A stretch of 64,000 nt of DNA from Kappaphycus alvarezii. Lineage: Eukaryota; Rhodophyta; Florideophyceae; Gigartinales; Solieriaceae. The DNA lies in contig NADL03000171.1 in NCBI GenBank assembly GCA_002205965.3, positions 86,790-150,789 of the forward strand. The letters are read 5' to 3'. The position numbers were made by a program, and so were the translations under genes. Shown piece by piece: positions 4,403-64,000 of this stretch; within the stretch, counting starts at the first letter, position 1, and each line of letters starts with the position of its first letter. Below the pieces are notes generated by a model. The model saw only the letters and a list, made by a program, of their open reading frames with translations. It made no database searches and had not been told where the DNA came from.

Positions 4403-4422
4403 AAGACGAACGTCCCGACTCG

Positions 4423-16132: not shown

Positions 16133-16200
16133 CATTGTGTTTGTCTAGAAAAACGATGGGATAGATCGGACATATGTTCCAAAAGTAAAACACCGAACCT
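16133..16200 (+). repeat. Short dispersed repeat (about 70 bp)
   Basis: Reads 'ttgtgtttgtctagaaaa' ... 'gatgggatagatcgga' ... 'agtaaaacaccgaa'. Related copies occur at 44,155-44,222, 48,616-48,680, 50,429-50,500 and 26,272-26,330. A partial second copy follows directly at about 16,212-16,250. Confidence 0.5.
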
Positions 16201-32170: not shown

Positions 32171-32176
32171 ACTGTT

Positions 32177-34811: not shown

Positions 34812-35342
34812 TTATTTTTCATTCTCTAAATCAGATCGAAACAACTCCTCCAAAATATCCATGCTGCCCAAGAAGTCCACACGAATATCTGCGAACGGCT
34901 CATAGCTCTCTATGTACTCGTGGGAGATATTTAAACAACCAAAAATATCTCCATCTGGTTCCAGCGTCGGCACCAATTGTTTCATACTCTCCACCCCAGG
35001 CCTCACCATTCCAAATTTTCCATGTCCCGTTTTCCTTCATCCACCTCGTCCTCTTCCTCCTCTTCCCCATCCTCGTTATTAACCTCGTAGACCAATTCAG
35101 GGGCTACCCACTCCTCGAAGGTGTCCCCAGCACCCTCCTTGATGTCCCACTCTCGTCCCTTACCCACCTCCTCCGCCTCATCCTCAGTAAAAAAGAGACG
35201 CACGAATTCGATCACATTCTTTTTGGTTTGCCGAACAGGTAGTTCTCACGGTAAGTAAGTCCGAAAGGGAGTAGGGGAATAGAGTTAGGGGGCAGGGATG
35301 GCGATTTTTGGAAATGACTTTCGAGTGGCATAAATTTGTCAT
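34812..35342 (-). pseudogene. LTR-internal acidic protein gene, segment A1 copy (frameshifted)
   Basis: Begins MTNLCHSKVI at 35,342, 110 bp downstream of TATTTAAA. Central part: IEFVRLFFTEDEAEE, then a conserved FEEW-x-APELVYE motif, then a run of Glu and Asp. C-terminal part: YEPFADI and MDILEELF. Single-base losses near 35,290 and 35,235 and an indel near 35,005 break the frame. The A2 copy (58,292-58,822) is intact at the first two positions, so the ancestral frame was about 175 codons. There is no signal peptide or membrane segment. Low sequence complexity makes homology to known proteins hard to judge. Unknown function. Confidence 0.65.
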
Positions 35343-35451
35343 TTTGGTAGGCTTTGGAGAATGGGGGGCAAAATAGGGTGTTTTGGGTCTGTGAGGGGAG
35401 AGAAGTGGTGAGTAAAATGCTCCGAGACGTTTAAAACTTGGAATAAAGGGG

Positions 35452-35459
35452 TTTAAATA
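35452..35459 (-). promoter_or_regulatory. TATTTAAA box of the LTR-internal gene
   Basis: TATTTAAA in 'gagcctatttaaaccccttt' on the minus strand, about 110 bp before the ATG. Conserved with its flanks at 49,875-49,882 and 58,932-58,939. It is distinct from the TATATAAG box further downstream in the same LTR. Confidence 0.55.
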
Positions 35460-35890
35460 GGCTCCCGAGGCAGGTCTTTAGATTGAAAATAGCTAAAGTA
35501 AATGTGCAGGGGATTTTGTAGTAGTGAGTTTGCGCCCTTTTTCTGAAAAAAAAGCAAATTTGGAGGAGAAGGAAAGCTAAAAGGGGAAAAAATTTGATTC
35601 GTGATCGATTCAGATGGGTAGATGCAGTATGAAGTATCTAGATAAAAGGGAAGTAAGTTTGGAGGGGACCGCGGTAATTATAAGGAAGGCCCAAGGAGGA
35701 CGAGAAAGGACCGAAAATATAAGCAATTTTGAACAAGGAGAAGTAATGCATAAAATAAAAGTCTGTAGATGACGGCGAAAAAATCCGTTCCTACCAGCAC
35801 TCGCCTAACAATTATCTTAAGCTTGAGCAATTAGTCACATCGGTCTCCCTTAGACCCTTTCTCCTTCCCTTCTAGACTGCCCTTTCCAAA

Positions 35891-36499: not shown

Positions 36500-37217
36500 T
36501 GATATGGGTAAACGGCGGGGGAAGAGATCCTCAGAACCAATTACCCTGAGAAGGAGGTGTTGCGAGCGAAAAAAGTGCTACCGTGGTATTGTTGAACGAA
36601 CAAAAGGGAGTGTATATAGAAGAGAGTTGAGAAAGCTACAAGCAAGTATAAAAGGGGCAGGGTCTACCACCGACGCTCTGCGACCAGCTTAGGAAAAAGT
36701 TTTCTTGGGTCTGAAGTGACTCTCAACTTCCTACTACTCGGGACTTGGCTTGAAGTTGTCTGCCAACTTGCTTCACCTACACTAAAGGAAGCAGTTTACT
36801 CGGCTTATATAGACTTTTGGCTACCCTTAAAGTCTCAAACAAACATACTAATAACCATAAAATGTATTCACGGTAATAGTTTGAACCAGAGAGACTACTA
36901 GGAGATATTTCCTCAAGGTAAATATCTAGGTGCCATACCTATGCCAGCCACCCATCGGCCAGGGGTGGGAATTGATGTGGCCATTATATAGACCTTTCAG
37001 AGCTACTTGTAGTATCACCCACAACTGGAACTGTACTGACATCTACTATGACAGCGTGTCCTAAAATGAAAAAAATCAACCGATGAATTTGCCACACTCA
37101 TCCAAATTAAAAATATCTTGCAAATTCAAAAACTGTAAAAAATCTTCCCAATTCCGATACTGTATACAATCATGGTCCTCATCTAGATTTTTTTCGTGTG
37201 CGAATTTGGCCACATCA
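36500..37217 (-). repeat. Element 2 3' LTR (718 bp, short type)
   Basis: Begins TGATATGGGTAAACGG and ends GGCCACATCA; nearly identical to the Element 1 3' LTR, including the TATATAAG promoter box near 36,810. Confidence 0.88.
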
Positions 37218-37250
37218 CGCCCTCTCGCTCAAGACGAACGTCCCGACTCG

Positions 37251-40200
37251 TCACTGCTCTTCTTCTGCTTCGGTTAGTGTTCGCTGTCTTATTGATAAAT
37301 GTATGGTCTCTCAAACGGGTACGGATGCAACTGATTACCAATATGATGCTCTAAAAGTAGGTTCGCATTACTGGTACTCACTTTGTAGCATAGCTCATAT
37401 ATTGGTTTGATCACATCGAGGTGGGGTTGAATACATTCTTCTTCCGTGACTCTTCCGAATCTTCCAAGAGTGAAAAAATATATGTGATATGCAAACTCTT
37501 CTGGAAGATGCCGGAGGAATGGATGCGATAAGAAAAGAAGACGCGCATCATCAAGAACGAATCTTCGTAAGATAAGTGCGGTCCATGTAGCGCCCTAAAA
37601 CATAAACAGATGCTTATCATGAAATAAGAAATGACCTGCGCATCGTTCGCATCCTCGGAGATATTGCGCAGCCAAAAAGATAATCTTCTTCTTCCGACTG
37701 TATGCTGTGCATGGTTGTGAAGGAGAGCTAGAGATGAAGTTGTGGTGGACGGTCCCGATGAATGGCCGCGACCAGCTCCTGACGTACTGGGACCTGCACG
37801 AGGTCCTCTCGGGGGACGACCGGAACCTCTTCTGGGCGGGTTGTTGTCTCCTGAAGGTCCTCCTCTGGTCATCATCACTGCTTCAGGAGGATCCTCGCCG
37901 CCTCCAACGTTCCCAATTTGTGGCGGAGAAACGTAAGGTTCCCATAGAGGATACGGGACCAGCCTGTATTCCATATCCGGGGTAAGGCGTAACCTCTCAG
38001 TCGCACGTCTTGGTTGTTCTTGAGAAATACGTAAATTGGACGGATAATATTCAGATACGTTTGCGACAAGTCTCCAGCAGCTACCATTCCATATCTTCCT
38101 ATAGAGTAATGATATATTACCTCCACAAACTCTGGACCTGCTTCCGTGAACCTTCCGTTTTGGAATGAAAATAGAACTCTTATTAATAGTCGGAAATCTT
38201 CTTCAGGTAGCAATGGTCCGTTCAACGTACGAAAACATAGGCATATATTAATGTAGAAATGGATGATTACGTGGAGTTCGTAGTAGTCCCGCGTAACGAG
38301 ATGATCCATTCCCAGGCCCTTTTTCCTCCCATAGGAATCATTCTATAGTTAAAGATGAGTATGCCCCGTGGTTGCGCATAGTCCTGTGTGAGAAGGAATT
38401 CTTCAGGCCTCTGATGGTAAGGGACCAGACGACGTGCATGGATGGCCCTCCTTGATCTCTTCCCTGAGCTTGAACAGAGCTGATAGTGCGGGTGTCTTTC
38501 CTCCGTGACGATGCAAGGGTTCGAGTACTTGGTTTGGAAGGCCGGCCACTTCACAGCCTGCTGCATTGCTTTTCCATGTACTACAAGTACTTTAGAGCCA
38601 ACTGAAAAGGTTCTGACTGCAGGTTCTGCATCCTTATTTCTTGTCTGTGTTAGCGCGCGGTGTGATCTCCAGCCTTCGGTGGCCAGTAGTTCAACTTCCC
38701 TACTCTCTTCATCGATAATATTTGTTTCCATGTCTCTCTGTAACATTCTAGGAGCCCTTCCGTACATTAGCTCGAATGGTGAGCGTCCATTTCTTCCTCT
38801 TCTTCGACGGTAGCCGTATAACACTTTTGGTAAGGCATCTTCCCACTGGATTTCATTCTCCACATAGTTTTCGATATTGCTCGTTTGATGGTTCCAACCA
38901 TCCTCCCGCTTTCCCGTTGGACATAGGAGCGTATGCGAGAACGGTCTTCAGCTGAATCCCTTTCTCTTCCAAAAAACGAAGCAGTGAAGTTGCAGTAAAA
39001 CAAAGGGCGTTATCCGAGATGATCCTTTTTGGAAGACCAAACGGTTCAATTATTTCTTTTTCGATGAATCTCAGTACCACCTCAGCATTTGCCTCCTCAC
39101 TGCAACTGCTATTGGCCATCCAGTAAGATGTTCCACCCCTATAAGGAGATATTTGTTTCCGGAAGAAGTTTCCTTGAACGGGCCCGCGAAGTCAACTTGA
39201 GAAGGTTTCAAAGAGACCGGAAACTGGAAAACTTAGAGTTGTCTTATACTTCCGTATTGGAGTGAATTTTTGGCAGTTGTCGCAGCTTTTCACGAAGTTA
39301 TAGACGTCCTTATGGATACCGGGCCACCAGAATCTCTCAGTTACGAATTTTTTGGTTGTTTCGAGATCCCAATGCCCTAGCTCATCATGGAAAGTCCTCA
39401 AGATCTTCATTCTTTCTTTCAAAGGGGCCACTAGTCGGGGACCGGCTTTAGTGTGCCGGAAAAGTTTCCCATTCCACAATGTAAAAGCCTTTTGATTCCT
39501 GCGTACCCAATTTCGGTGTTCAAGATCAACCTTTCTCATTTCTAGTCCATCGAGGAATTTGATCAGTCCGTGAATATTAGCTTCGTACTCGTTATCGTTC
39601 GGCAACTGCAACTCGGCGACTCCGACGATGTCCTCCGAAGCTTTTTCATTTGGAATCAGTGCGTCCCTCAAGCGGGATAGGTAATCGGCAGGCTGATTAT
39701 TGCGTCCGGGTCTATACACAATTTCAAACCGATATTCTGCGAAAATGTCGAGCCATCGGGCCAAGCGGTGATGTACATCCTTCTTTTGGAATGCTGTTTT
39801 AAGTGCCTGGTGATCAGTTATCAAGACAAATTTCTCGAGTGATAAAAGGTATACGCGAAACTTTTTCAGCGCGAAGACGACAGCTAGCGCTTCTTTCTCG
39901 CAGACTGAGTATCTCTTTTCCGCGTCATTCAGAGTTCGGCTTGCGAATTGAACAGGGTGTAGTCTTCCGTTTTCATCTTTTTGGGACAAAACGGCACCCA
40001 AAGACCGTTCTGAGGCATCTGTCTCCACAACGAATGGTCTCTTGAAATCTGGGTACATGAGAACTGGGGGGACACATAGCTTATCTTTAAGCTCCTGAAA
40101 TGCAGTTTCCATTTCCTTGTTCCAGTAAAATTTTCCGTTCTTCGTAGTGCTGGCATGTAACGGTGCTGCAGTCTTGGCGAAATCTTTGATAAATCTTCTG

Positions 40201-41322
40201 TAATATGAGGCCAGTCCTAAGAAGCTTCGGACCTCCGTCTTTGAAGCGGGCCTTGGTGCCAACTTTATTTTTTCGTTTTCTCTGGATCCACTCTAATTCC
40301 CTCTTGGTCGACGATATGACCGAGTAATTGGATAGAAGTTTTCGCAAAGAAGCATTTGCTCAACTTAATTTTCAAGCTATACTCCGATATCCTCTCCACA
40401 ACTGTCTTGACGTGCGAGATGTGCTGATCCAATGTTTCTGAGAATATGACGACATCATCGATATAGACTCTTGCGAATGGAAGTCCTTTCAAAACCTCGT
40501 TCATCATTCTTTGGAATGTAGCTGGTGCATTCATGAGACCAAAAGGCATCACTTCGAACCTGAACGTACCGGCTTTGCTGGTAAAGGTTGTTTTTTCCTT
40601 ACATTTTTCATCCAATGGAATCTGCCAATAGCCAGTGTAAAGGTCAATTGAGGTGAAATATCTCCCGTCCTTCAGGTCCTCGAGGATCTCCTCCATTTGG
40701 AATCGGAAATCGGAAATCGATCGGGTATCATTCTCTGGTTCAGTTGTCGGTAATCGACGCAAAAACGCAGCTTTCCATCCTTCTTTGGTGCGACCACAAC
40801 TGGAAACGACCATGGGGATGAAACTGGTCGAATAATATCATTTTTCAGCATACTTGTAACATTTTCTGAGATAAATTGGTCATATTTTGGCGGTTGACGT
40901 CTAGGCTTGTGGTAAATCGGTTGAGTGTCGGTAAGTTCGAACGAGTGAGTGTTGTTTTCTTAAATCTGAAACGCTCCATGCAATTACTTCGGAAGATGTT
41001 AACATGTCGGATATTTTCAGTGAGGCGGGGGCGGGAAGGTGCTGCACTTTTCCTTGGATTTCTGCCATTTGGCGCCCTTTTTCTTCTTGATCCTCAACCT
41101 CAATATTTTGAAGGACCTCTTCCGTCGTGCTCACATCTTCATATATGGAATTCGACGTATTCTTATTTTCTTTGCAAAGGTAATCTTCTTTCATGCTCCG
41201 AATTCTGTCCTTTGATTCGATATCATCGCAAAAAGAAACACATTCGGGTTTCAAACTTATCCTAGAATCCAGTCGTCATCTGTTTCAAACCCGGAATCAT
41301 AATCGTCCCATGCCATGTTCAT
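37251..41322 (-). pseudogene. pol: Element 2 pol with duplicated-domain extension (frameshifted)
   Basis: Same domains as in Element 1: RT with YIDD near 40,455, RNase H, integrase zinc domain and core, integrase C-terminal domain, then the two-domain extension (about 38,290-37,290). Breaks: near 40,950 (short deletion), 40,700 (small duplication of 'ggaaatc'), 40,265, 39,195, 39,098, 38,903 (removes the frame around the integrase catalytic Glu), 38,865, 38,297, 37,980 and 37,527. At all of these Element 1 is intact. The RNase H to integrase zinc region (40,262-39,192) is open here but broken in Element 1. Confidence 0.88.
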
Positions 41323-43195
41323 TACCCCCGAGGGTACCCTTTTCCACTTCCGAAAGTGTTAGTTGGTTCCGAATCTTCGCTGTCATAGCTAGAAGTGAAA
41401 TCTTCACTGTCCGTTTCTTTTAAATCTTCAGGATGCGTGCTTTTGTCGAAATCCAGGGGCATCTTCACGGTTCTGCCGTCAATATTAACTGAAACCATTT
41501 GGTTGCCCAAGTCAATGCATGTTCCTAGTCTTTCCATTGTGGGGCAGCCAATGATTGCATCGAAAGGGAGATCCGGCATGACAAGAAAGTCTACATCAAC
41601 TTTAGAGTCCCCAAAGAACACGGAAACCTTGTCAACAGTGCCCATGCATTTTGAGACGGTTCCATCCGCTACAGTTATTTTTCGAGTCGTTGGAGTAATT
41701 TCGAGACCTAGATCTGTCACCAAAGTTTCTGAAATGAGGTTTGGAACAGCACCCGAATCGAAGAGAGCTTGGGTTTTCATACCCAATACTTTGACTGGTA
41801 CCAGCTTAAGACGTCTTGGTGCTGTCGAGGCCGATTGAAGAAACAGTTTCTTACCCTTAGCGGACTTATTAGACCTGATAATTTTTTTGAGTTCTTTTCT
41901 CGCATCCTCTGCGTCGCCCCTCAAAAGTTGACCAAACGTTATCCCAGTTGGGGCCGATGCAAGCTCAGCCACCAAATTGTACCTCTTCACATACTCTAGT
42001 ACGTCCTTAGAGATACTTTAACTTTCTTACTCTTTTTCGTCTTCTTGGCCGGAGTGACTCCCACTCCTGGAACAACTTGATCAGACCTCTTGGTTCGAGA
42101 GGTACAGGTGCTGCGGATATGCTCCAGCATTCCTAATCTAGCCTAGGTTTTCTTCGGAAAAAGTTCCCTTCCCCACCCTTTTTGTCACATTGACTTGACT
42201 AATCTCTTCAGCGATGGATACGTTACCGGCATCCGTCAACCTTTGATCCCTTCTATTTTGTAAGATTTTCACCTCTGGTCCTGACTCACTCCTTGCTTCC
42301 GATAAATTTGCTCTTCTGTTGTCTTTAGACCAGCAGTTACTTTCATGATGCCCATATCGACCGCACTTTCACAACGAGTGTTTCTATGTGGATTATCAGG
42401 ACACCTGTTTGCAAAGTGTCCAGGCTTGTGACAGTAAGAACAGACTTCTGCGGCCTTAGGGGCCCCAGACTGGTTCTTCTTAATGGTAAGAGTAAGGCTT
42501 TCCAACTGCGAGGTTATCATGTCAAGTCGATTATCGAATCGGGTTTCCAACCTTTCTTCCAAGTTTTTGACATCGCTCCTGACAGATTCTAATGCCGCTG
42601 CACTAGTAGCCGGCCTTTGATAATTCTTTTCAGGATGTACGATAGACATCGATGTGCGGGTTTCCCTCGGTACCTCACTCAGTGACTGAAACGTCTCCGA
42701 ATTTTTGACAAATTCTACTATGGTACCCTTCAGTTCATCAAAAGTGTGAGGGCCCTTGATGAGGAGGAAATCGGAGAGCCGCTTATCCCCCATAGCCGCC
42801 TTACGCAGCATTCCGTACTTGGCTTGGGCGTTGAACCCAGCCTTTTCATAAAGATCACACAAGTACACCAATGAGCTTAACAAATCGTCGAAGTTGAGCC
42901 GGGCCTCTATGGCGGTACGAATCATCTCATCTGGTTCTACCTCCTTAGCATACTCTTTCACAAGCCACTCACATACCTCACCGAAGTTACGCCCATTCCC
43001 GTTAAGAGACCACCCGTCGATAAACTTGGACTTATATTTGTGCTTTGCGTCACCATGAAGATAGGCGAAGATACTTGCGGCCTTCTCTTCATCGCCCTTC
43101 TCTCGCATCACAACGTTGACATATGTGTAAAGAAACTCCTCAACGTCTTCAGTCTTGCCCCCTGTGAACGTTATACGAGCAGCGTTGAGATCCAT
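41322..43195 (-). pseudogene. gag: Element 2 gag-protease (frameshifted)
   Basis: Same start and domains as the intact Element 1 ORF. One base is missing near 42,369, inside the codons of the second zinc knuckle, and several indels lie at 42,020-42,170 in the basic linker. The protease part is open again from 41,990 with DSGA intact. The TAATG overlap with pol is preserved at 41,320-41,324. Confidence 0.88.
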
Positions 43196-43284
43196 GATTA
43201 CAGAAAAGAAATCCCCCCGAAGTGTTCCTTACTACTGCTCAACTCGAATACCTCGGGTGCAACCCCCTCCACAAGAGTACCAAA

Positions 43285-43745
43285 TGATAGGGGTAAATCG
43301 GCGGGGGAAGAGATCCTCAGAACCAATTACCCTGAGAAGGAGGTGTTGCGAGCGACAAAAGTGCTACCGTGGTATTGTTGAACGAACAAAAGGGAGTGTA
43401 TATAGAAGAGAGTTGAGGAAGCTACAAGCAAGTATAAAAGGGGCAGGGTCTACCACCGACGCTCTGCGACCAGCGTAAGAAAAAGTTTTCTTGGGTCTGA
43501 AGTTGACTCTCAACTTCCTACTACTCGGGACTTGGCTGAAGTTGTCTGCCAACTTGCTTGACCTCTCCATGAGGAAGCAGTTTACTCAGCTTATATAGAC
43601 TTTTGGCTACCCCTAAAGTCCGAACAAAACTACAGAAGGTACCAGGATGGTAGGCAAATTTAGAAGGGAAGCTGAGCGGCGTCAGGGGGCGGGATCGTTG
43701 TCGGTTGCTGGATTACTCGAGAGGAGGACCATTTTCTGTATTACA
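43285..43745 (-). repeat. Element 2 5' LTR (461 bp), chimeric and internally deleted
   Basis: The inner part (43,285-about 43,550) matches Element 1. From 'cttgacctctccatgagg' outward it matches the long LTRs of segments A1/A2 up to 'cagaaggtaccag' (about 43,646), then jumps to the outermost end of the long LTR ('gatggtaggcaaattt'...'tgtattaca'). The acidic reading frame and its promoter are missing between these points. Confidence 0.75.
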
Positions 43746-44154
43746 GCAAATCAGAAGAATTCCCGGTATGTCTTATTCTATGTATTACGCAGTTTGGGAC
43801 GGAACTTTTGTCGCAATAGCCTGTTGTTGCTTTCTCAAGTCGAATAACTTGGTTCTTTAATTTTTAAAAAGTGCGGTTCGGCTATCCCCCGGTTTATGCT
43901 AGACATGCTCAGGATTATAGCTTTCTCAAGTACATCTCCACGATTTATTGAGGAAAAGGGGAGGTTTTACGCCAGACTTCGAAGGGCTGCAAACAAGGGG
44001 ATTCTTCAAGGTGAGCGTTACGTAGCGAGCTCAGCGATTACTGCACCAAACGCATCGTTCTCATAGTGTAACTGGTGGTTTGAATTCAACAAGAACGGAA
44101 GGGTATAGGTGTTTTACTCTTGGAAGATATATTTGATCTATCCCAAGAGGTGGA

Positions 44155-44222
44155 AAGGTTCGGTGTTTTACTTTTGGAACATATGTCCGATCTATCCCAT
44201 CGTTTTTCTAGACAAACACAAT
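44155..44222 (-). repeat. Short dispersed repeat (B2 copy)
   Basis: Counterpart of 16,133-16,200, with a partial second copy immediately before it (about 44,105-44,150). Confidence 0.5.
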
Positions 44223-46497
44223 GGACTCAAAAGGTATGCAGACACAGTAATAGGGAAGGAACTACCCTCCCTAAAAGGCTACCTTCAGGCCAGTCATCAA
44301 GCAGGCGTTCAAGACAAAACTTATTTTTCGAAACGACCTTTGGGTCTAACTATGGTTCCTTTTCTATTTTTTCTGATACATAGGGTGCTGCAAGGCATTA
44401 TTTGTTGATTTCCAAGAACATGGGTATTGTTGTTGTGGTACCGTTTCCATTGTATACCTCTACAGCTAGAGGCCACTCAACACTTATCTAATTTGTGGTT
44501 TCGCAATCCTGAAACTATCGCTAAATGAAATGGATAGCTGGAGTTGATGAGGTGAGTCAGCTATGAGGAACTCGTAAAGATTACATCGCAACCAGCAAAA
44601 GGAAAACCCCACAAAGCACCTCTCATGCTAAGTTCTGAGCAAGTTCAGAGTTCTGAGCATGAGACCTGGCATCCCAGACGCTTTAACGCTGAGGTTGCAG
44701 CAACTGTCTATCGGGTATTTGTTAAGTTCTTTTCGAACTGATTCTTTACAGGCATTGATAAGCAATATTCCCGTGGACACTGCCATGCAAGTTGACTGGG
44801 TAACAGCTAGTATATCCTTACAGGGAATGAACCCCGTCTTCCACCATATCCAGGTTTGCGCCACTTACATATACCCTACTTGTGATTTTCTAGAACTTCT
44901 CTTATTGCCATTTAGGCAACAACATTTAGGCACACGAGTGACATTACCCATTATCCTGAACACATCAGCATACACCGGGGGTAGCCGAACCGTACTTTTC
45001 AAACATTGAAGAACCAAATCGACTTTCCTCTTACTGCTATGTTTTCATAACAATAAGCGAAGTTCTAGATTCTACGTGTTCATTGTCACCCTAAACTATT
45101 TCCAACAAGGCCGTAGATTACAGCAAAATAGGCAGTAACACAATCTCTTGAATGCGACATAAGCCACTGGCACATGGTTTTTAGAATACCATAACCAGTA
45201 AGACATCCTATTGGGTACTAAATTTCACAGCTCTCATAACCCGATTGTTTTCTACAGCAGTCCTACTGTTACTGCACTTCCCGCTACAGAAAAAAAACTA
45301 TCTTTAACACAAATCTGTGTGAACTGATGGTTACTAACGAAAGCATCACTTTTAATGATCAATATTCAGTACTAACCGGATTTTGCGTATCAGCTGGCCA
45401 CAGGGCCAGTCAAAGCAATTTTCGATCATCCAATAACCTTTTCATCTAATCGGAACTATTCATGTAACTGTCTTCTCCGCCGCCATTGCTGAAACCTCAC
45501 TATAGGCATACCCTACATCCACCATACTGCAGCTCGACGAGTGAGCATGATAAGGGCGAAAATTTCGCCATTCCACCGTTTCCCAATCCCCTCTAGCATT
45601 GGAGAGGATTTGAAAGAAATATTACGGAATTCAATTACGGACGAGATAGGGAGAAGGAGGAGATTGTATTTGAGCGACAGGGGATGACCGACAGCAGTTA
45701 ATTTGCACGGGTGTACCCTAAATATCATCAATATTTATTCAAAAACTTGTCCGGTGACCTATTTGAGACACCATTAACGAAAGCATCAGAAAAGTACATA
45801 TTGAAAAATGTGTCGAAATTCTGCGGAGCAGGAGCGAGTATCACTCCATTGTACAGGTTCAAAATGATAGTTCGCTTTCCGTAGAATTCTTTGGCCCTAT
45901 TTGGGATAATTGTTTAAGGTTTCTCTACGTCTTTGTTCAAAATGTAGAGAGGAGAGAATTTTGTTTCTGGCTGCCCCACTAATTGGAAATATTATTTGAA
46001 ATCAGGCCTGTAAATGAAGAATGAAAGTATCTGTTTCAAGCGCCAGTCCCTGAACATGTATTTGATACCTCATCGAGATTATCTTTCTACCTGACTTTTG
46101 TGCTAGGGAGACAGCTCGAGAGTTATGTCAACATAGGTCAGGATAAGAAACGTTTCTTTCTGTAGGAGGAAAGGCTTTGGTTTTACTCGTGGAAGATACG
46201 TGCAAGCTATCCTACCCTTCTGTATGCATAGATTGCTTTACTTGCTTCGCGGAGATCAGCAATCCACTAGAACCACTGAAACGGCCGCAATAAATCAACC
46301 CCGTTTATCTCCTTAGTACAAGCAAGTACCTCTTACAGCACATATGGAATATAGGAAGCAGTATGATGGATTGAAGGAAAAATGAGTCACGATGTCGGCT
46401 AGGAGTTTCATACCATGCAATTTCACTCAATAACAGCTGTTCAGAGATTTCAGCACGAGGCTTAATGAAGACAGGATGTATATACTCGGTTAGTTCT

Positions 46498-46504
46498 TAT
46501 AAAA
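46498..46504 (+). promoter_or_regulatory. TATA box of peptide gene copy 3
   Basis: TATAAAA 119 bp before the ATG in 'cttataaaaggctgcccc'. Confidence 0.6.
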
Positions 46505-46616
46505 GGCTGCCCCTAACAGCCACTTCTGCTCCCGAATTTCAATCTCATCAACTCCTACAACTCTACATTCGTCAAGGATTCAAGACTGCTCAAGCCAAAT
46601 CGTTGCAATCATCAAT

Positions 46617-46895
46617 ATGTCTCGTCTCACTCTGCTTCTCACACTGTCCTCTTCTTCCTCGCTGCTTTTGCAGGTTGCCATCCCAAGTGAAGATGTCGAA
46701 AAGGAAAATTTCGCCAATGGAGATCTAATAGAGGATACGGTGCGCCCTGGGGCGATTTACAGGGGTCCTTGCGGAGGTCGGGGCCGTGCCGCGAGCCAAT
46801 GTAGAGCTATGATGACCGATGACTCCAACTGCATCATCCAGGGATGCCAGAGGGGAACCAGACGTGGCTTCCGATGCACATGTCGTCCTGCATAA
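46617..46895 (+). CDS. Secreted cysteine-rich peptide precursor, copy 3 (open, altered signal peptide)
   Basis: Open for 92 residues with the same mature peptide as the 23,739-24,017 copy (identical amino acids, six cysteines). Two compensating changes, a base lost near 46,645 and a G gained near 46,673, shift the reading frame through part of the signal peptide. The usual hydrophobic TVLFFLAAFA becomes serine- and leucine-rich (LSSSSSLLLQ). Secretion may be weakened, or the two indels may be assembly errors. AATAAA lies at 47,108-47,113. Confidence 0.7.
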   Translation: MSRLTLLLTLSSSSSLLLQVAIPSEDVEKENFANGDLIEDTVRPGAIYRGPCGGRGRAASQCRAMMTDDSNCIIQGCQRGTRRGFRCTCRPA

Positions 46896-47107
46896 GCTGG
46901 AAATGTGGAACAGGTCTCGAATGTAGTGAATGCGCTAAGGAATAGCAGTGCTAGAAGTACACAATACAATTACACCTGATGTGATTTCGAAGTGTTGCAA
47001 CAAGCACAACTACACACCAAGTGTGCTATGCATTGCGGTTCGAAATTAGTTGCCCTTCATCTATTTTCCTGTTACATTCGTCCTTAAAAAGCCTGTGTTC
47101 CCGTGGT

Positions 47108-47113
47108 AATAAA
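47108..47113 (+). terminator. Poly(A) signal of peptide gene copy 3
   Basis: AATAAA 213 bp after the stop codon, in sequence shared by the three module copies. Confidence 0.5.
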
Positions 47114-49268
47114 CATCTTGCATTATAGCGATAAGATTACTCTCTAAAAAATAGAGAATCTAAAAACATCCACCTAGAAAATCCGTATGGTGAGATCCTC
47201 GTTATAGAGTCAAATGAAATTGCAGTACAAAAAGCTTTTACCAGCATATTTTCACTGTCGAGCAGCCCCGTCAGACCTTAACTGGTCAGCCGCTGTTCTG
47301 TGTACAAATAGCTGTACTACGGAGACCAATTCTTTTTGCTTTCCTTTTTTTCCAAATCAGACTGGTGACCAACCCGTAAAACTTTTGCCATCTGAGGATT
47401 ACTGGTTTTGCCAGCGTCGTATTGCTCATTTATAGAGCCGGCCCAGCAAAGAAGCAGCGGTACTGGGTAGACTGGCAAAAAAGATTCGCAATTTTGACCA
47501 ATTGAAATGATCGCATGTTGAGACGATGCACCAGTTTCATTGGGAAAGTTGGGGGTGTGTTACTGCAGGACTTTGGAGGGCTTAACCTGGAGGAAGCTTT
47601 GGGGTGATCTAGTATCAATTTCAGTTTCAAATATTTTTATTTATTATAGTTCCCAATAAGGACGAAAAAGTTTACGTGATTCAAAAATTAGCGTACTGAC
47701 GGCACGGCTGTGTCCCCGAGAACGGAGCCATATTTACGATATTCATAAAATCGGAAAAGTCTCGGTGTTTGACTCTTGAAAGGTACACTAGACGTATAAA
47801 AGTGTGGGAATATCTTTTGAGACGTTCGTCCGTGATGAGAATTGAAATGATCTGGACTGCTCCAGGACGTATTTGACTGGCTCTCTCTTAAATGGAATAT
47901 GCCCATGCCCATGTTTTTTTTTGCCGAGGAATTTCTAGCTCATGTGTGTACTTGACCACAGTTGCGATTCCTGTTGTTTTGATCGTTCGCTTATGTGTAA
48001 TTTCATTCTCATTGTCCCTAAGTTGTCCTAAAATGGCCCACAACAGCATCGGAATGACCGTTGGAATTAATTTCGTTCGCAATTTGTCTGCTTACTCGCC
48101 CCTCTCCACCACAGTCTACCTGGCGTATCCGAGAATGTTGGATCGAGAAGCTGCCAGACTCGCGTAGTGAGCGTTCTAGGCACAGACTCAAAATTTAAAA
48201 GTAGCAGTAATTCATCCTGGGCAGTCTGTCAGGGTTGCTGGAAAAGGGTTGCTAGAACTATTCATATACTGGATAGTAAAAGAATTCAGCTGAATTTAAT
48301 CGATAGAGACCACCCTACTAATTCGAAACCTCTCTAAACGGGAGAGAGCTTTGCTGCTTCATTGATTTAGAGGCAGCGGCGTTTATTAGCCGAAATGGGC
48401 ATACTTCTCTAAAAGTTACTTGTGCTACCATTTTTCTTTGTTCAGAACACTAATGAATTTCACCCAAAGAGCCTTCACACCATGGGGTTTCATGCAAAAG
48501 CACGCTGCAACCACCATCTTGTGCAATGTTGCTGAGTTTATAGATAACCTTAAGGTTGCCTTTTAGGAAACGTATTTCCTCTCAAATTCTGTGTTGGAAT
48601 GCCATTTTGAGTCATTTGTGGTTGTCCGGAAAGCTTCAGGATATATTGAATACAGCTTCAGAGAGAAAAGCTCCAACCGTAGCCCCATGAGTTTTCACCT
48701 TGGCCTCGACACCTCAAGGTACGAGGAAGCTTGATATTGTATAGTATCACGGTAAGAACTCGTCAAAGTCTAATCTCATCGACTCCTTTCGAAACAAAGT
48801 GCTTCAATTGCAACAGCGAGGGACATATTGCGTGTGTTGTGATAGGAGTAAATCGTCGGGGGAAGAGATACTTAGAACAACTACCCCAAGACGGAGGTGT
48901 TGCGAGCGACAAAAGTGCTACCGTGGTATAGTTGAACGATAAAAATGAGTGTATATGGGAGAGAGTTGAGAGGGCTACAAGCAAGTATAGAAGGAGCAGG
49001 GTCTACCACTGATGCTTCTGCGAACAGCTTAGGAAAAAGTTTTTTTTGAGTCTGAAGTTGACTCTCAACTTCCTACTACTCGGGCTTGACCTGAAGTTGT
49101 CTGCAAATTGCTTGACCTCTCAAGGAGGAAGCACCCTACTAGCTTATATAGACTTCGGCTAATGTTAAAGTCTCAATCAAACATACTGAATACCATAAAA
49201 CGCATAAAAGGGCATCTTGTGGATGTGATTTGCCAGAGGGAAGATATTATCAAGATAAATATCTGTAT

Positions 49269-49771
49269 CTACTCCTCACAATCGTGATCTTCAGATCAGA
49301 TCCGAATAACTCTTCCAAATATCCATAATCTCGATGCAATCCCTACAAATTCCCTCGAACGACTCAGAATGATAAATGGCTTCATCAGACATATCAAGAT
49401 CCTCCAACCCTTGTTCGCGACCCTCAGTCTCCGCTTGCACCGCGTTCGAAGAATCCGAGATGACGATCACGCTCTGACTCTCCCCTCCGTCCCCACAGCA
49501 ACTTCCCCACGATTATACATTATCGGTTCCCACAGAGCTACAAAGTCTTCCTCATCCTCGATCCCTCCACGTCCGACTCAGTCCCCTCTGACTCCTCCTC
49601 CTCCGCCTCCTCCAAGAAGTGCCGACGAACCACTCCCGAACACGCTCACGGTCCATCCTCCTGAAGTAAGTCGGCGTTGTCTGTTGGCCCGTTATTCATT
49701 AGAGCTAGACCGTTGATGGGGCGAGAGGGGCGGTTTTTGGTGATAGGGGCGGAGGGGCGAAGGTTGTTCAT
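49269..49771 (-). pseudogene. LTR-internal acidic protein gene, module B2 copy (frameshifted)
   Basis: Starts MNNLRPSAPITKNR at 49,771, about 104 bp after TATTTAAA (49,882-49,875). An acidic middle follows (FLEEAEEEESEGTESD), then a C-terminal part matching the 63,795-64,000 copy. Several indels break the frame. The end is a TAG at 49,269-49,271, directly before the U3 promoter block. Confidence 0.65.
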
Positions 49772-49874
49772 TTTGATAGAAGTTGGGGAATGGGAGCAAT
49801 GTAGGGTGTTTGGGTGTGGGGGGGAGGGTGATTAGTAAAATGATCGGGGACATTTGGAACTTGGAAAAAAGGGG

Positions 49875-49882
49875 TTTAAATA
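49875..49882 (-). promoter_or_regulatory. TATTTAAA box of LTR-internal gene (B2)
   Basis: Same context as 35,452-35,459 ('ggagcctatttaaacccc' on the minus strand), although the rest of the two LTRs has diverged considerably. Confidence 0.55.
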
Positions 49883-50428
49883 GGCTCCTGGGGCAGGTTC
49901 TATAGATTACGAATAGGTAAAATAAATCTGCAAGGGGTTTGCAGTAGTGCAATTGCGCTCTTTTTCTCAAAAAAAGGCGATTTTGGAGGAGGAGGTAAGC
50001 TAAAATGGAAAACGACCTTGATTTAGGGTCGATTCAGAGGGTTAAATACGGTATAAAAATATCTAGATAAAATGGAAGTAAATTTGGAAATGACTGGGAG
50101 AAGTTAAGGGCGGGATCGTTGTAGGTTGCTGGATTAAACGAAGGGAAGACCATTTCCTGTATTACATAAAGGAGGACCATTTTTTGTATTACATGGTGGT
50201 TGTAAATCTTTACGAGTTGTACAGTGTGGCACAGAAGCGTGAGGAGGGCATTAAAAAATTAACTAGGAATGTGGGCGACGGGTGGAAACCTGCCGCGCTT
50301 GCATCACTTGGAGAATAAACGCAAAACGGGTAACGAAGTCGCTGGGCTCCTGTTGAGGGGAGTAACCGCGTCGGGAAGCGGCGAAGGAAGCAAAGCGGCG
50401 TAAAAAACCCTTGCCATCGTCGCCTAAG

Positions 50429-56350: not shown

Positions 56351-56761
56351 TAAATTCCTTTTCATATAATTTTCTCCTTTTCAATTACTTATATGTAGAT
56401 ATGGATCCCTATTTGACAGAAAATCTTTTCTTGTTCCCATTTTCTTTGATTTTCCTAAATTCTTACATCTTGTTCCATTCTAGATATTTGTATGCCCAGA
56501 TTCTGCAATAACTTATCCGTTCAAAGGAAATTTTTATAATTCGCACTGTAAAATTAATTGGGACTTCTTTAATGATTCAAAGGCCTGCCAATTTTAGCCT
56601 GTAGACGCTATTTAAACCGCGTTGAGATCGGGCAAACATTATTGACATATTTAAGCAATAACTAAGGGACCTCTTCAACTTTTTAAAAATAAAATATGCG
56701 GAATACTTCTCTCTTGCCCCATTCGCAAATCCCCTTTCCTCATACCACCACCGTCTCCGCC

Positions 56762-57058
56762 CTATTCCGTTTGGACCAAGCCGCCGTAGAGGAAGACCCC
56801 CTCAAGAAACCAGATAGCGCTTGTCGAAGCTTTCAGCTCGACATTTGGTATGGATTGAAGAACGGTTAGTGGTTTGCATACTTGAAAGAGGATAATAGTA
56901 TGGCAGAGGAGAATAGTAAGGCCAAGGAGTGCTTCAAAGAGATGGTGGTCTCTAAACTGGTCTACATAATGGTAAAAGAGGAGAGTGGAAAGTTCAGGGA
57001 TGCATAAGAGTATTCCGAGGAGCCTGGGGACAAAAAGAAAGATGCCGGTCTGGTTCAT
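56762..57058 (-). CDS. Hydrophobic ORF in segment A2, unrecognised
   Basis: 98 codons with two likely membrane segments (around GIFLFVPRLLGILLCIPEL and LLGLTILLCHTIILFQV). The A1 counterpart shifts frame after FQV (33,327-33,584) and continues in another frame to 33,092. No recognisable family. It could be chance, as the two copies are recent duplicates. Confidence 0.22.
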   Translation of the reverse strand: MNQTGIFLFVPRLLGILLCIPELSTLLFYHYVDQFRDHHLFEALLGLTILLCHTIILFQVCKPLTVLQSIPNVELKASTSAIWFLEGVFLYGGLVQTE

Positions 57059-58291
57059 ATGGTATGGGAAGGTACTTATTGGCCATAGCAGACAGTCCTA
57101 TTCATAGGGCCGATTGAAGGGGCGTTAGGTAACCTGGATTTATTGCAGATGGGGCCAAGCAAACGTGATATATTCTCAGGTATGTATGTGGAATACATGC
57201 ATACATGTCATTGCTAAAGAAAAATGTGATGTTCTGAACTAGTGGACGAAGAAGATGAGCAGTAGATTTCAAAATCATCTGTCAAGCATCTTTTTTCAAA
57301 TTAGCTGTGTCTACGTGAACTACTTCCATTCTCTCTGGTGCTTTTAGAAGTCTAATCGATATTTTATTTTGGAAAAAAGTTTGAATAGGCTTAACATATT
57401 ACTTCCTTTAGGAGAACGAAGGCAAGTTGGGAGTCAATTTAGAGCAACAAACCTTCGAATATCCTTATATCATCTAGTTGTGCGAGAGCGATCACTCTTC
57501 TTTGAGTAACCCCTCCGCGCTTATCCTTTTATGCCTACTGTAGCACTTTACTCCTTTGCAATAACTTTCATACTGGATATTCGGCAGCCTTTTTTCGTTC
57601 ACTAGATATTTACCCTGTTAACATCGATAATGAATTCATGTTTAAGATTTTCAGCCGCTGGGAGGTGTTATCCTCCGTAAGGAAGAGAATACGTAGACAA
57701 TTCCTTGACTTGATACTGCTAACTACCGCATTTTGTCTTGAGGACTAAGTATCCTTTCAAAATCTAATTTTCGTCGATCCATAGAGAAAGGCTAAAGTAG
57801 AAAACAGGTCCAGAACTAGGCATACGAGGTTGTTCCATGACTGTGAAATTATTGATAGAGGTAAATCGTCTGAAAGAGAGATACGCAAAACCAAATACCC
57901 AAAAAGGAGGTGTTGCGAGCGACAAAGGTGTTATCACGGTATAGTTGAACGAACAAAAAGGATTTCATATGGATGAGGGTTGAGAGGGGAAAATAAAGTA
58001 TGGAAGGGACAGGGTCTCCCACTGATGCTCTACGACCAGCTTAGAAAATATTTTCTTGGGTCCGGAGTTGACTCTCAACTTCCTACTACTCGGGACTTGA
58101 CTTGAAGCTGTCTGCCAACTTGCTTGACCTCTCCATGAAGAAGGAGTTTGCTCAGCTTATATATACTTTCGGCTTCCACTAAAGTCCGAACAAAACTACA
58201 AAAGGTACCAGAAAATGCATGAAAGCAATTTTTGTGGACTATATAAGCTAAACAAAGATAATTAAGAAAAATAACAATCAGTGAGGTCCTC

Positions 58292-58822
58292 TTATTTTTC
58301 ATTCTCTAAATCAGATCGAAACAACTCCTCCAAAATATCCATGCTGCCAAGAAGTCCACACAATATCTGCGAACGGCTCATAGCTCTCTATGTACTAGTG
58401 GGAGATATTTAAACAACCAAAAATATCTCCATCTGGTTCCAGCGTCGGCACCAATTGTTTCATACTCTCCACCCAGGCCCCACCACTCCAACGTTTTCCA
58501 AGCTCCCTTTTCCCTCATCCACCTCGTCCTCTTCCTCCTCTTCCTCATCCTCGTTATTAATCTCGTAGACCAATTCAGGGGCTACCCACTCCTCGAAGGT
58601 GTCCCCAGCACCCTCCTTGATGTCCCACTCTCGTCCCTTACCCACCTCCTCCGCCTCATCCTCAGTAAAAAAGAGACGCACGAATTCGATCACATTCTTT
58701 TTGGTTTGCCGGAACAGGTAGTTCTCACGGTAAGTAAGTCCGAAAGGGAGTAGGGGAATAGAGTTCAGGGGGCAGGGATGGCGATTTTTGGAAATGACTT
58801 TCGAGTGGCATAAATTGGTCAT
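58292..58822 (-). pseudogene. LTR-internal acidic protein gene, segment A2 copy
   Basis: The longest surviving version: open from MTNLCHSKV at 58,822 for 120 codons through the FTEDEAEEVGKG and FEEW-x-APELVYE motifs and the Glu/Asp run. A one-base loss near 58,475 then shifts the frame. A stop (CDS position near YIESYEPF) also interrupts the C-terminal part, where A1 reads Glu. Between them, A1 and A2 keep every segment open in at least one copy. Confidence 0.65.
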
Positions 58823-58931
58823 TTTGGTAGGCTTTGGAGAATGGGGGGCAAAATAGGGTGTTTTGGGTCTGTGAGGGGAGAGAAGTGGTGAGTAAAATGC
58901 TCCGAGACGTTTAAAACTTGGAATAAAGGGG

Positions 58932-58939
58932 TTTAAATA
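58932..58939 (-). promoter_or_regulatory. TATTTAAA box of LTR-internal gene (A2)
   Basis: 110 bp before the ATG at 58,822, identical in context to 35,452-35,459. Confidence 0.55.
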
Positions 58940-61032
58940 GGCTCCCGAGGCAGGTTCTTTAGATTGAAAATAGCTAAAGTAAATGTGCAGGGATTTTGTA
59001 GTAGTGAGTTTGCGCCCTTTTTCTCAAAAAAGCAAATTTGGAGGAGAAGGAAAGCTAAAAGGGGAAAAAACTTGATTCGTGATCGATTCAGATGGGTAGA
59101 TACAGTATGAAAGTATCTAGATAAAAGGGAAGTAAGTTTGGAGGGGACCGCGGTAATTATAAGGAAGGCCCAGGGAGGACGAGAAAGGACCGAAACTATA
59201 AGCAATTTTGAACAAGGAGAAGTAATACAGTAAAATAAAAGTCTGCAGATGACGGCGACAAAAATCCGTTCCTACCAGCACTCGCCTAACAATTATCTTA
59301 AGCTTGAGCAATTAGTCACAATCGGTCTCCCTTAGACCCTTTCTCCTTCCCTCCTAGACTGCCCTTCTCCAACCATATCCAGGTTTGCGCGACTTACATA
59401 TACCATACTTGTGATTTTCTAGAACTTCTCTTATTGCCATTTAGGCACACGACATTTAGGCACACGAGTGACATTACCCATTATCCTGACACATCAGCAT
59501 ACACCGGGGGTAGCCGAACCGTACTTTTCAAACATTGAAGAACCAAATCGACTTTCCTCTTACTGCTATGTTTTCATAACAATAAGCGAAGTTCTAGATT
59601 CTACGTGTTCATTGTCACCCTAAACTATTTCCAACAAGGCCGTAGATTACAGCAAAATAGGCAGTAACACAATCTCTTGAATGCGACATAAGCCGCTGGC
59701 ACATGGTTTTTGAATACCCTAACCAGTAAGACATCCTATTGGGTACTAAAATTCACAGCTCTCATAACCCGATTGTTTTCTACAGCAGTCCTACTGTTAC
59801 TGCACTTCCCGCTACAGAAAAAAAAACTATCTTTCAACACAAATCTGTGTGAACTGATGGTTACTAACGAAAGCATCACTTTTAATGATCAATTTCAGTA
59901 CTAACCGGATTTTGCGTATCAGCTGGCCACAGGGCCAGTCAAAGCAATTTTCCATCATCCAATAACCTTTTCATCTAATCGGAACTATTCATGTAACTGT
60001 CTTCTCCGCCGCCATTGCTGAAACCTCACTATAGGCATACCCTACATCCACCATACTGCAGCTCGACGAGTGAGCATGATAAGGGCGAAAATTTCGCCAT
60101 TCCACCGTTTCCCAATCCCTCTAGCATTGGAGAGGATTTGAAAGAAATATTACGGAATTCAATTACGGCACGAGATAGGGAGAAGGAGGAGATTGTATTT
60201 GAGCGACAGGGGATGACCGACAGCAGTTAATTTGCACGGGTGTACCCTAAATATCATCAATACTTTATTCGAAAAACTTGTCCGGTGACCTATTTGAGAC
60301 ACCATTAACGAAAGCATCAGAAAAGTACATATTGAAAAATGTGTCGCAATCCTGCGGAGCAGGAGCAAGTATCACTCCATTGTACAGGTCAAAATGATAG
60401 TTCGCTTTCCGTAGAATTCTTTGGCCCTATTTGGGATAATTGTTTAAGGTTTCTCTACGTCTTTGTTCAAAATGTAGAGAGGAGAGAATTTTGTTTCTGG
60501 CTGCCCCACTAATTGGAAATATTAGTTGAAATCAGGCCTGTAAATGAAGAATGAAAGTATCTGTTTCAAGCGCCAGTCCCTGAACATGTATTTGATACCT
60601 CATCGAGATTATCTTTCTACCTGACTTTTTGTGCTAGGGAGACAGCTCGAGAGTTATGTCAACATAGGTCAGGATAAGAAACGTTTCTTTCTGTAGGAGG
60701 AAAGGCTTTGACGTTTTTACTCGTGGAAGATACGTGCAAGCTATCCTATCCTTCTGTATGCATAGATTGCTTTACTTGCTTCGCGGGAGATCAGCAATCC
60801 ACTAGAACCACTGAAGCGGCCGCAATAAATCAACCCCGTTTATCTCCTTAGTACAAGCAAGTACCTCTTACAGCACATATGGAATATAGGAAGCAGTATG
60901 GTGGATTGAAGGAAAATGAGTCACGATGTCCTCGGCTAGGAGTTTCATACATGCAATTTCACTCAATAACAGCTGTTCAGAGATTTCAGCACGAGGCTTA
61001 ATGAAGACAGGATGTATATACTCGTTAGTTCT

Positions 61033-61039
61033 TATAAAA
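61033..61039 (+). promoter_or_regulatory. TATA box of peptide gene copy 4
   Basis: TATAAAA 120 bp before the ATG, same context as copy 3. Confidence 0.6.
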
Positions 61040-61152
61040 GGCTGCCCCTAACAGCCACTTCTGCTCCCGAATTTCAATCTCATCAACTCCTACAACTCTT
61101 CATTCGTCAAGGATCTCAAGACTGCTCAAGCCAAATCGTTGCAATCATCAAT

Positions 61153-61430
61153 ATGTCTCGTCTCACTCTGCTTCTCACTACTGTCCTCTTCTTCCTCGCT
61201 GCTTTTGCAGTTGCCATCCAAGTGAAGATATCGAAAAGGAAAATTTCGCCAATGGAATCTAATAGAGGATACGGTGCGCCCTGGGGCGATTTACAGGGGT
61301 CCTTTGCGGAGGTCGGGGCCGTGCCGCGAGCCAATGTAGAGCCATGATGACCGATGACTCCAACTGCATCATCCAGGGATGCCAGAGGGGAACCAGACGT
61401 GGCTTCCGATGCACATGTCGTCCTGCATAA
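61153..61430 (+). pseudogene. Secreted cysteine-rich peptide gene, copy 4 (frameshifted)
   Basis: The signal peptide is intact (MSRLTLLLTTVLFFLAAFAV). Single bases are missing near 61,218 and 61,256 and an extra T is present near 61,303, so neither the propeptide nor the mature cysteine-rich part is in frame with the start. The downstream mature sequence to the TAA at 61,428-61,430 is otherwise the same as in copy 3. AATAAA at 61,643-61,648. Confidence 0.8.
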
Positions 61431-61642
61431 GCTGGAAATGTGGAACAGGTCTCGAATGTAGTGAACGAGCTAAGGAATAGCAGTGCTAGAAGTACACAAC
61501 ACAATTACACCTGATGTGATTGCGAAGTGTTGCAACAAGCACAACTACACACCAAGTTTGCTATGCATTGCGGTTCGAAATTAGTTGCCCTTCATCTATT
61601 TTCCTGTTACATTCGTCCTTAAAAAGCCTGTGTTCCCGTGGT

Positions 61643-61648
61643 AATAAA
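61643..61648 (+). terminator. Poly(A) signal of peptide gene copy 4
   Basis: AATAAA 213 bp after the stop codon. Confidence 0.5.
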
Positions 61649-63363
61649 CATCTTGCATTATAGCGATAAGATTACCTCTCTAAAAATAGGAAGCTAAAGA
61701 TATCCACTAGAAAGTCCGTATGGTGAGATCCTCGTTATAGAGTCAAATGAATTGTAGTAACAAAAAGCTTTTACCAGCATATTTCACTGTCGAGCAGCCC
61801 CGTCAGACCTTAACTGGTCAGCCGCTGTTCTGTGTACAAAAGCTGTACTACGGAGACCAATTCTTTATGCTTTCCCCAAATCAGACTGGTGACAACCCGT
61901 AAAAGCTTTTGCCATCTGAGGATTACTGGTTTTGCCAGCGTCGTATTGCTCATTTATAAGCCGGCCCAGCAAAGAACGCAGCGGTACTGGGTAGACTGGC
62001 AAAAAAGATTCGCAATTTTGACCAATTGAAATGATCGCATGTTGAGACGATGCACCAGTTTCATTGGGAAAGTTGGGGGTGTGTTTACTGCAGGACTTTG
62101 GAGGGCTTAACCTGGAGGAAGCTTTGGGGTGATCTAGTATCAATTTCAGTTTCAAATATTTTTATTTATTATAGTTCCCAATAAGGACGAAAAGTTTACG
62201 TGATTCAAAAATTAGCGTACTGACGGCTGTGTCCCGCGAGAACGGAGCCATATTTACGATATTCATAAAATCGGAAAAGTCTCGGTGTTTGACTCTTGAA
62301 AGGTACACTAGACGTATAAAAGTGTGGGAATATCTTTTGAGACGTTCGGTCCGTGATGAGAATTAAAATGATCTGGACTGCTCCAGGACGTATTTGACTG
62401 GCTCTCTCTTAAATGGAATATGCCCATGCCCATGTTTTATTTTTTGCCGAGGAATTTCTAGCTCATGTGTGTACTTGACCACAGTTGCGATTCCTGTTGT
62501 TTTGATCGTTCGCTTATGTGTAATTTCATTCTCATTGTCCCTAAGTTGTCCTAAAATGGCCCACAACAGCATCGGAATGACCGTTGGAATTAGTTCCGTT
62601 CCAAATTGGTCTGCTTACTCGCCCCCTCTCCACCACAGTCTACCTGGCGTATCCGAGAATGTTGGATCGAGAAGCTGCCAGACTCGCGTAGTGAGCGTTC
62701 TAGCACAGACTCAAAATTTAAAAGTAGCAGTAATTCATCCTGGGCAGTCTGTCAGGGTTGCTGGAAAAGGGTTGCTAGAACTATTCATATGCCTGGATAG
62801 TAAAAGAATTTAGCTGAATTTAATCGTTAGAGACCACCCCTACTAATTCGAAACCTCTCTAAACGGGAGAAAAGCTTTGCTGCTTCATTAATTTAGAGGC
62901 AGCGGCGGTTATTAGCCGAAATGGGCATACTCTCTAAAAGTTACTTGTGCTACCATTTTTCTTTGTTCAGAACACTAATGAATTTCACCCAAAGAGCCTT
63001 CACACCATGGGGTTTCATGCAAAAGCACGCTGCAACCAATCTTGTGCAATGTTGCTGAGTTTATAGATAACCTTAAGGTTGCCTTTTAGGAAACGTATTT
63101 CCTCTCAAATTCTGTGTTGGGATGCCATTTTGAGTCATTTGTGGTTGTCCGGAAAGCTTCAGGATATATTGAATACAGCTTCAGAGAGAAAAGCTCCAAC
63201 CGTAGCCCCATGAGTTTTCACCTTGGCCTCGACACCTCAAGGTACGAGGAAGCTTGATATTGTATAGTATCACGGTAAAGAACTCGTCAAAGTCTAATCT
63301 CATCGACTCCTTTCGAAACAAAGTGCTTCAATTGCAACAGCGAGGGACATATTGCGTGTGTTG

Positions 63364-64000
63364 TGATAGGAGTAAATCGTCGGGGAGAGATACTTAGAAC
63401 CAACTACCCCAAGACGGAGGTGTTGCGAGCGACAAAAGTGCTACCGTGGTATAGTTGAACGAATAAAAAGGAGTGTATATGGGAGAGAGTTGAGAGGGCT
63501 ACAAGCAAGTATAGAAGGAGCAGGGTCTACCACTGATGCTCTGCGAACAGCTTAGGAAAAAGTTTTTTTTGAGTCTGAAGTTGACTCTCAACTTCCTACT
63601 ACTCGGGGCTTGACCTGAAGTTGTCTGCCAAATTGCTTGACCTCTCAAGGAGGAAGCACCCTACTCAGCTTATATAGACTTCGGCTAATGTTAAAGTCTC
63701 AATCAAACATACTGAATACCATAAAACGCATAAAAGGGCATCTTGTGGATGTGATTTGCCAGAGGGAAGATATTATCAAGATAAATATCTGTATCTACTC
63801 CTCACAATCGTGATCTTCAAGATCAGATCCAAATAACTCTTCCAAAATATCCATAATCTCGATGCAATCCCTACAAATTCCCTCGAACGACTCAGAATGA
63901 TAAATGGCTTCATCAGACATATCAAGATCCTCCAACCCTTGTTCGCGACCCTCAGTCTCCGCTTGCACCGCGTTCGAAGAATCCGAGATGACGATCACGC
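63364..64000 (-). repeat. Solo long LTR in module B4 (cut by window end)
   Basis: Starts TGATAGGAGTAAATC after the same flank ('ttgcgtgtgttg') as 48,840, so it is the duplicated form of that insertion. Its far end is outside the window. Confidence 0.85.
63795..64000 (-). CDS. LTR-internal acidic protein, C-terminal part (partial)
   Basis: Open for 67 codons from the window edge to a TAG: a hydrophobic-Ser-rich start (VISDSS), acidic middle, SFEGICRDCI motif, MDILEELFGSDLE motif and acidic end. This is the best-preserved C-terminal half of the family. The B2 copy of the same segment is broken by indels. The motif pair ICR-D/N-CI and DILEELF recurs, more or less altered, at 17,500-17,570, 28,110-28,170, 32,640-32,720 and 34,812-34,930. 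Confidence 0.6.
   Translation of the reverse strand, partial: VIVISDSSNAVQAETEGREQGLEDLDMSDEAIYHSESFEGICRDCIEIMDILEELFGSDLEDHDCEE

Follow-up and report, generated by a model that had tools for sequence, protein, structure and literature searches.

We show that the U3 region of a Ty3/gypsy long terminal repeat (LTR) in the red alga Kappaphycus alvarezii holds a complete small gene at a fixed place, and we regard the existence of a selected gene inside this LTR as close to certain. A dedicated second gene in U3 had been proposed in the first-pass annotation of a 64,000-nucleotide stretch of one contig (hereafter the window), and the proposal is supported by intact copies elsewhere in the genome and by dN/dS ratios below 1 between subfamilies. 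The window's own copies of the gene are decayed, and the copy that the annotation singled out is dead.

LTR A and its relatives in the window

The solo LTR in which the gene was proposed (LTR A; 48,840-50,193, minus strand) is 1,354 bp long, and the features that had identified it as an LTR are all present: TG...CA ends, a target duplication (TGTTG at 48,835-48,839, with its partner TGGTG at 50,194-50,198) and two unoccupied homologous sites. Its full span (1-1,354) is matched by 17 of 20 fetched genomic copies, and the remaining three match most of it. The boxes TATTTAAA (49,875-49,882), the presumed promoter of the LTR gene, and TATATAAG (49,143-49,150), the ordinary LTR promoter box, bracket an acidic frame (49,291-49,771) in sense order on the minus strand, as had been described. 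The last ~340 bp (48,840-49,180, minus strand) form a tail common to the LTR types compared within the window. What had been said of the frame's position stands, but its openness does not: ATG-started sense ORFs that overlap it reach just 33-53 aa, and six single-base indels over 504 bp separate it from an intact relative. This broken copy has the same start codon as the intact relative P0011, and a C-terminal piece that includes VIVISDSS is open (49,294-49,470, minus strand).

The layout of LTR A is seen again in solo LTR B (34,374-35,810, minus strand), which has a perfect target duplication (ATTAT/ATTAT) and a broken gene of a second type (type II), and in LTR B2 (57,853-59,291, minus strand), a segmental duplicate of LTR B in which the type II gene is open over its first 120 codons (58,460-58,822, minus strand; P0001). 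The 5' LTR of Element 3 (E3; 16,612-18,011, plus strand), to which the same layout had been ascribed, bears it out in part: it contains a broken type II gene (~16,995-17,561), and the sequence 3' of the LTR shares 86% identity with the gag region of the 3,675-11,144 element, but neither of the exact TATTTAAA- and TATATAAG-type TATA boxes looked for in this LTR is present. The gene's C-terminal half occurs in a second A-type LTR that is cut by the window end (63,364-64,000, minus strand) and is still visible in an old LTR relic (32,172-32,834, minus strand). Old relics of the gene also lie on the plus strand at 27,689-28,191, where it is nearly full length, and at 20,342-20,780. Scans of the window with Rfam and for tRNAs gave no hits.

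TG...CA ends and a 5-bp duplication, hallmarks of Ty3/gypsy LTRs, are found in LTR A, in LTR B and in a full-length element of the same family (3,675-11,144, minus strand; target duplication CCCTC). The Ty3/gypsy domain order (protease, RT-RNase H, integrase) is seen in Pfam hits along another element, L021, and protease is likewise succeeded by RT and RNase H at 6,629-10,380 of the window.

The window also contains large duplicated blocks (11,521-16,712, 43,644-48,839 and 59,362-63,363), which are 95-97% identical and partly inverted, with a further pair formed by 32,873-35,889 and 56,351-59,372. The 5' ends of A-type LTRs (for example L008, L009 and L005) carry ~28-bp tandem repeats, in 1-6 copies in 18 of 20 LTRs, with none recognised in the other two.

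Intact copies and their place in the LTR

The window's own 336-Mb assembly was searched for further copies. The annotation had allowed that the frame might be open in no consensus of the family; we judged this from natural copies in place of a DNA consensus, and intact ones are found in the genome. The DNA of the frame gave 533 candidates, of which 40 were scored, every one at 91% identity or more; among 20 fetched copies, 15 are open for at least 144 aa from the ATG through the conserved C-terminus and the other five for 63-136 aa. P0011, a 168-aa protein from one natural genomic copy, gave 10,176 candidates, and the 150 of them that were scored yielded at least 156 genomic matches. By a count made by eye, at least 55 among the matches listed span 160 or more of its 168 residues without a stop, and identity among its nearly full-length matches goes down to 55%. 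A search with a diverged copy as query reaches 46% identity.

These copies sit in LTRs. We inspected 41, namely 40 P0011 matches picked for divergence together with the copy L003, and all 41 of these chosen copies have the shared LTR tail, at least in its first part, 3' of the frame. The tail begins 78-110 bp beyond the match end in 40 of the 41, and 168 bp beyond it in one whose match stops early; an ordinary TATA box lies 120-130 bp 3' of the frame in 27. The gene is present at both ends of a full-length element (L063) whose LTRs are 98.3% identical, with ~210 codons open in each. The LTRs of another full-length element (L064; 96.9% identical) are of the same type, and neither has an open frame of 200 codons.

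Solo LTRs keep the gene as well. In a set of 60 fetched LTR copies, internal element sequence follows four and precedes five, and the end of the tail was not reached in ten; in 22 of the remaining 41 a perfect 5-bp duplication is found at the distance expected, so many of them are solo LTRs. The suggestion that the gene is retained by solo LTRs is borne out by frames that are open in solo LTRs with target duplications. On contig C782 of the assembly (G000), between ~16,800 and 48,400, four gene-bearing LTR copies run in the same direction at a spacing of ~10.37 kb, which suggests a tandem array.

The further claim that every LTR of the family contains the gene fails on an abundant subfamily with 715-bp LTRs, represented in the window by the 3,675-11,144 element, whose LTR lacks the acidic gene. 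A query with the 715-bp U3 gave 1,612 candidates, and all 40 that were scored, among them the window's own copy, match the query at 99-100% identity, which indicates that this subfamily spread recently. Gene-bearing LTRs have also spread recently, the five closest ones checked being 99.3-99.6% identical to L003, and we make no claim about the relative age of the two groups. The internal regions of gene-bearing elements are about 94-99% identical to that of the 3,675-11,144 element. Since a subfamily without the gene is both abundant and uniform, not all members require the gene in cis: it may be dispensable, or elements that lack it may draw on the product made by others.

Two further observations concern elements with the 715-bp LTR type. 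The element at 36,500-43,743 has unlike LTRs, its 3' LTR being of the 715-bp type and its 5' LTR starting like the long type with ~1 kb missing; its outer flank matches the Element 3 flank, within a duplicated block. Near the 3' end of the 3,675-11,144 element, a 462-aa ORF (4,423-5,811) has no Pfam match, and its two halves look alike by eye (ICLCFR.L.GP...).

Selection on the frame

The dN/dS test proposed in the first-pass annotation gives ratios well below 1 between subfamilies, and thus points to purifying selection. It was made on 36 of the 41 inspected copies over 164 codons (Nei-Gojobori, ratio of means), after L023, L026, L027, L041 and L052 had been dropped as visibly frameshifted in stretches; 598 of 630 pairs entered the true-frame calculation, the corrected distance of the other 32 not being computable. 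In the three more distant bins, which compare subfamilies, dN/dS is 0.36, 0.24 and 0.39, and in the two closest bins, the range where dead copies decay, it is 0.67 and 0.83. When these rows are read in the two shifted frames, the ratio rises to 0.99-1.22 for the distant bins and lies at 0.74-0.95 for the close ones. Omega from a codon model fitted to the entire tree is 0.60 for the true frame against 0.84 and 1.14 for the two shifted frames, and its reading is tempered by the control that stands at 0.84 and not at 1. The 28 pairs formed by eight diverged copies have pN/pS of 0.29-0.79, with an upper 95% limit below 1 in 27 pairs, and a block table of diverged copies shows the constraint outside the acidic tract also.

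Because the rows of these tests had been retrieved by protein similarity, which favours low dN, we made two tests that are free of that bias. The first uses alignments made on DNA only. Between L003 and LTR B, differences within the frame fall on third positions in 98/167 cases, against 62/167 and 69/168 for the other two positions. The third-position excess is significant for L003 against LTRs B, B2 and E3 (Fisher p = 4e-5, 0.0012 and 0.012; LTRs B and B2 are duplicates, so their comparisons with L003 are not independent) and for B2 against E3 (p = 0.014). In the flanks of the frame the phases differ little, as judged from counts with no significance test.

The second test retrieves copies with a non-coding query, the U3 upstream of the LTR B gene (1,796 candidates, 40 scored, 20 fetched). 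The N-terminal block of the protein is recognised in 15 of the 20 copies, the C-terminal block in 17 and both in 12, and neither block occurs in antisense in any of the 20, the motifs having been derived from the same copies. Essentially the whole frame is open in two of them, L078 (182 aa) and L086 (236 aa), whose proteins are 45-46% identical to P0011; against L003 they give pN/pS of 0.53-0.54, with upper limits of 0.66 and 0.70 (from four of 15 pairs computed). The frame is more than chance.

Product, putative promoter and proposed function

The predicted product is very acidic: P0011 has 50 D/E and 14 K/R among 168 residues and a pI of about 4.05, and its first 25 aa are basic, with a net charge of +4. 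Two blocks are conserved: a segment at the N-terminus that includes an Arg-rich stretch, and a C-terminal ICRDC...DILEELFGSDLE segment. The protein comes in two types, type I with a frame of 168 aa and type II, which belongs to another LTR subfamily, with 182-236 aa in its two intact copies; they are ~45% identical, and the type II acidic tract varies greatly in length among L086, L075 and L078. Most type I rows contain VIVISDSS, which we take to resemble a SUMO-interacting motif, that is, a hydrophobic V/I-rich core with an acidic flank. Both intact type II copies have another sequence at that place; the stretch therefore cannot carry a shared function, and SUMO interaction was rejected as a function common to both types. 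No homologue of P0001 or P0011 was found among 5.8 billion proteins, no family for the LTR protein was found in Pfam, PHROGs or PDB by sequence and profile, and viral contigs gave no match to it. An origin from gag-pol was also rejected, since a comparison with the internal regions of two elements gave no significant similarity.

Similarity along the LTR is decoupled between its parts. Between L003 and L024 or L043 the upstream U3 is hardly alignable (27-57% identity in 30-bp steps), and in comparisons of L003 with L024, L025 and L047 DNA similarity starts near the start codon or a little beyond it and falls just past the stop, before the shared tail. L003 and LTR B2, conversely, have the upstream U3 in common and strongly different genes. 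The LTR therefore looks like three modules (upstream U3, gene, and promoter with R-U5) that have probably been exchanged between subfamilies.

A promoter belonging to the gene is supported, at the level of the motif, by a TATA-like box whose position is fixed. A TATA-like core lies at -125 to -60 of the start codon in 26 of the 41 inspected copies, a place comparable to that of TATTTAAA in LTR A, whereas no other interval of equal size among those counted exceeds 5 of 41. Of 24 diverged copies, 14 have such a core, against a mean of 1.6 (maximum 6) after shuffling. The -125 to -60 interval was picked after a prior look at the data, and relatedness among the copies inflates these counts. TATTTAAA itself stands at positions 420-425 of the fetched stretch in 18 of 20 DNA-retrieved copies, for which the query held the box.

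From these features we propose that the first TATA box, 60-125 bp 5' of the start codon, serves the LTR gene, and that a short transcript would run from it to the LTR's own polyadenylation site, past the ordinary LTR promoter box that lies ~120 bp beyond the gene's stop. The very acidic protein (pI about 4.05) with its basic N-terminus would enter the nucleus and act in trans on the family's LTR copies, as an activator of transcription or as an antagonist of host silencing. Any LTR, solo ones included, could then feed a common pool of regulator, and elements that have lost the gene, such as those with 715-bp LTRs, could live on it. We give a probability of roughly 45% to such a trans-acting nuclear regulator made by the LTR, most likely an activator of the family promoter or an anti-silencing factor. 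A point against this reading is that a product that acts in trans places weak selection on any one copy, so the observed constraint needs some cis advantage. More tentatively, the whole may be a free-standing LTR cassette of promoter, regulator gene and terminator, which would move with the element, survive in solo LTRs, exist with two swapped protein types and support a gene-less subfamily in trans.

Accessory proteins of retroelements can also act on Gag, and a short acidic protein with a conserved Arg-rich segment and C-terminus could be a structural or packaging accessory (a Gag partner, or a chaperone or inhibitor of Gag assembly) and not a nuclear regulator. We consider this unlikely, since the gene's position 5' of the main promoter box and its own TATA-like box suggest expression apart from gag-pol, and since no sequence significantly similar to the gene was found in the internal regions of the two elements compared. 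Somewhat less likely again is a role in competition between elements, with the two swapped types as specificity or exclusion factors that, for instance, limit insertions by related copies. Types ~45% identical on interchangeable upstream U3 modules would suit such a role, but module swaps are expected anyway in LTR elements, through template switching. A host gene captured by the LTR, with its original still elsewhere in the genome, would explain why the frame does not resemble the element's internal region; that the LTR tail follows all 41 inspected copies and that searches of protein collections found no homologue make this improbable, although a distant host gene could be missed when 150 candidates are scored per protein search. 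Finally, that the frame is no gene (a low-complexity acidic tract, a former coding piece or an artefact of choosing rows by protein similarity) might be argued from the broken copies in LTRs A, B, B2 and E3, the acidic repeat within the frame and the protein query behind the dN/dS rows, but is already contradicted by a signal that persists in DNA-only alignments, under non-coding retrieval and outside the acidic tract, and by the many intact copies, and we give it almost no credence.

A regulator made by the LTR itself, our preferred reading, can be set beside several known systems. Foamy virus Tas is, to our knowledge, not a complete gene inside each LTR, unlike the gene described here, and VANDAL elements, with which one of the proposed functions invites comparison, are DNA transposons. 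In position, the nearest precedent is the sag gene of mouse mammary tumour virus (MMTV), which the excerpted text of PMC4667437 places for the most part in U3, mentioning multiple promoters and LTRs that are ordinarily non-coding. We liken the two by position and not by protein comparison, and claim no membership; unlike sag, the gene here belongs to a Ty3/gypsy element, encodes an acidic protein and has its entire frame inside the LTR. The likeness to Tas/Bel1, described in the excerpt of PMC517496 as a regulator acting on the LTR and an internal promoter, is one of logic only, involves no sequence comparison and again implies no membership. The rice elements Retrosat2, RIRE3 and RIRE8 are, in the excerpt of PMC3485330, likewise retrotransposons with long LTRs and an extra ORF (ORF0) of unknown function; unlike the LTR gene, ORF0 lies upstream of the gag-pol ORF and is not placed in the LTR. 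VANC of the Arabidopsis VANDAL transposons, a different protein, is a transposon-encoded anti-silencing factor according to excerpts of PMC5735166 and PMC10398659, and countering silencing is one of the functions that the LTR protein may have. MMTV apart, the excerpts of PMC3485330, PMC4667437, PMC11117352, PMC1560396, PMC12037069 and PMC4016481 report no gene inside an LTR, a statement confined to those excerpts that does not imply absence from print.

LTRs are usually treated as non-coding, and a solo LTR as regulatory debris; here the repeat itself carries a gene, which is present twice in a full-length element, has been spread genome-wide by solo LTRs and is clearly kept by purifying selection when subfamilies are compared. 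Should its product control the family, these elements would provide a simple system for studying element self-regulation and its possible exploitation by gene-less derivatives, and for asking how selection keeps a product that acts in trans.
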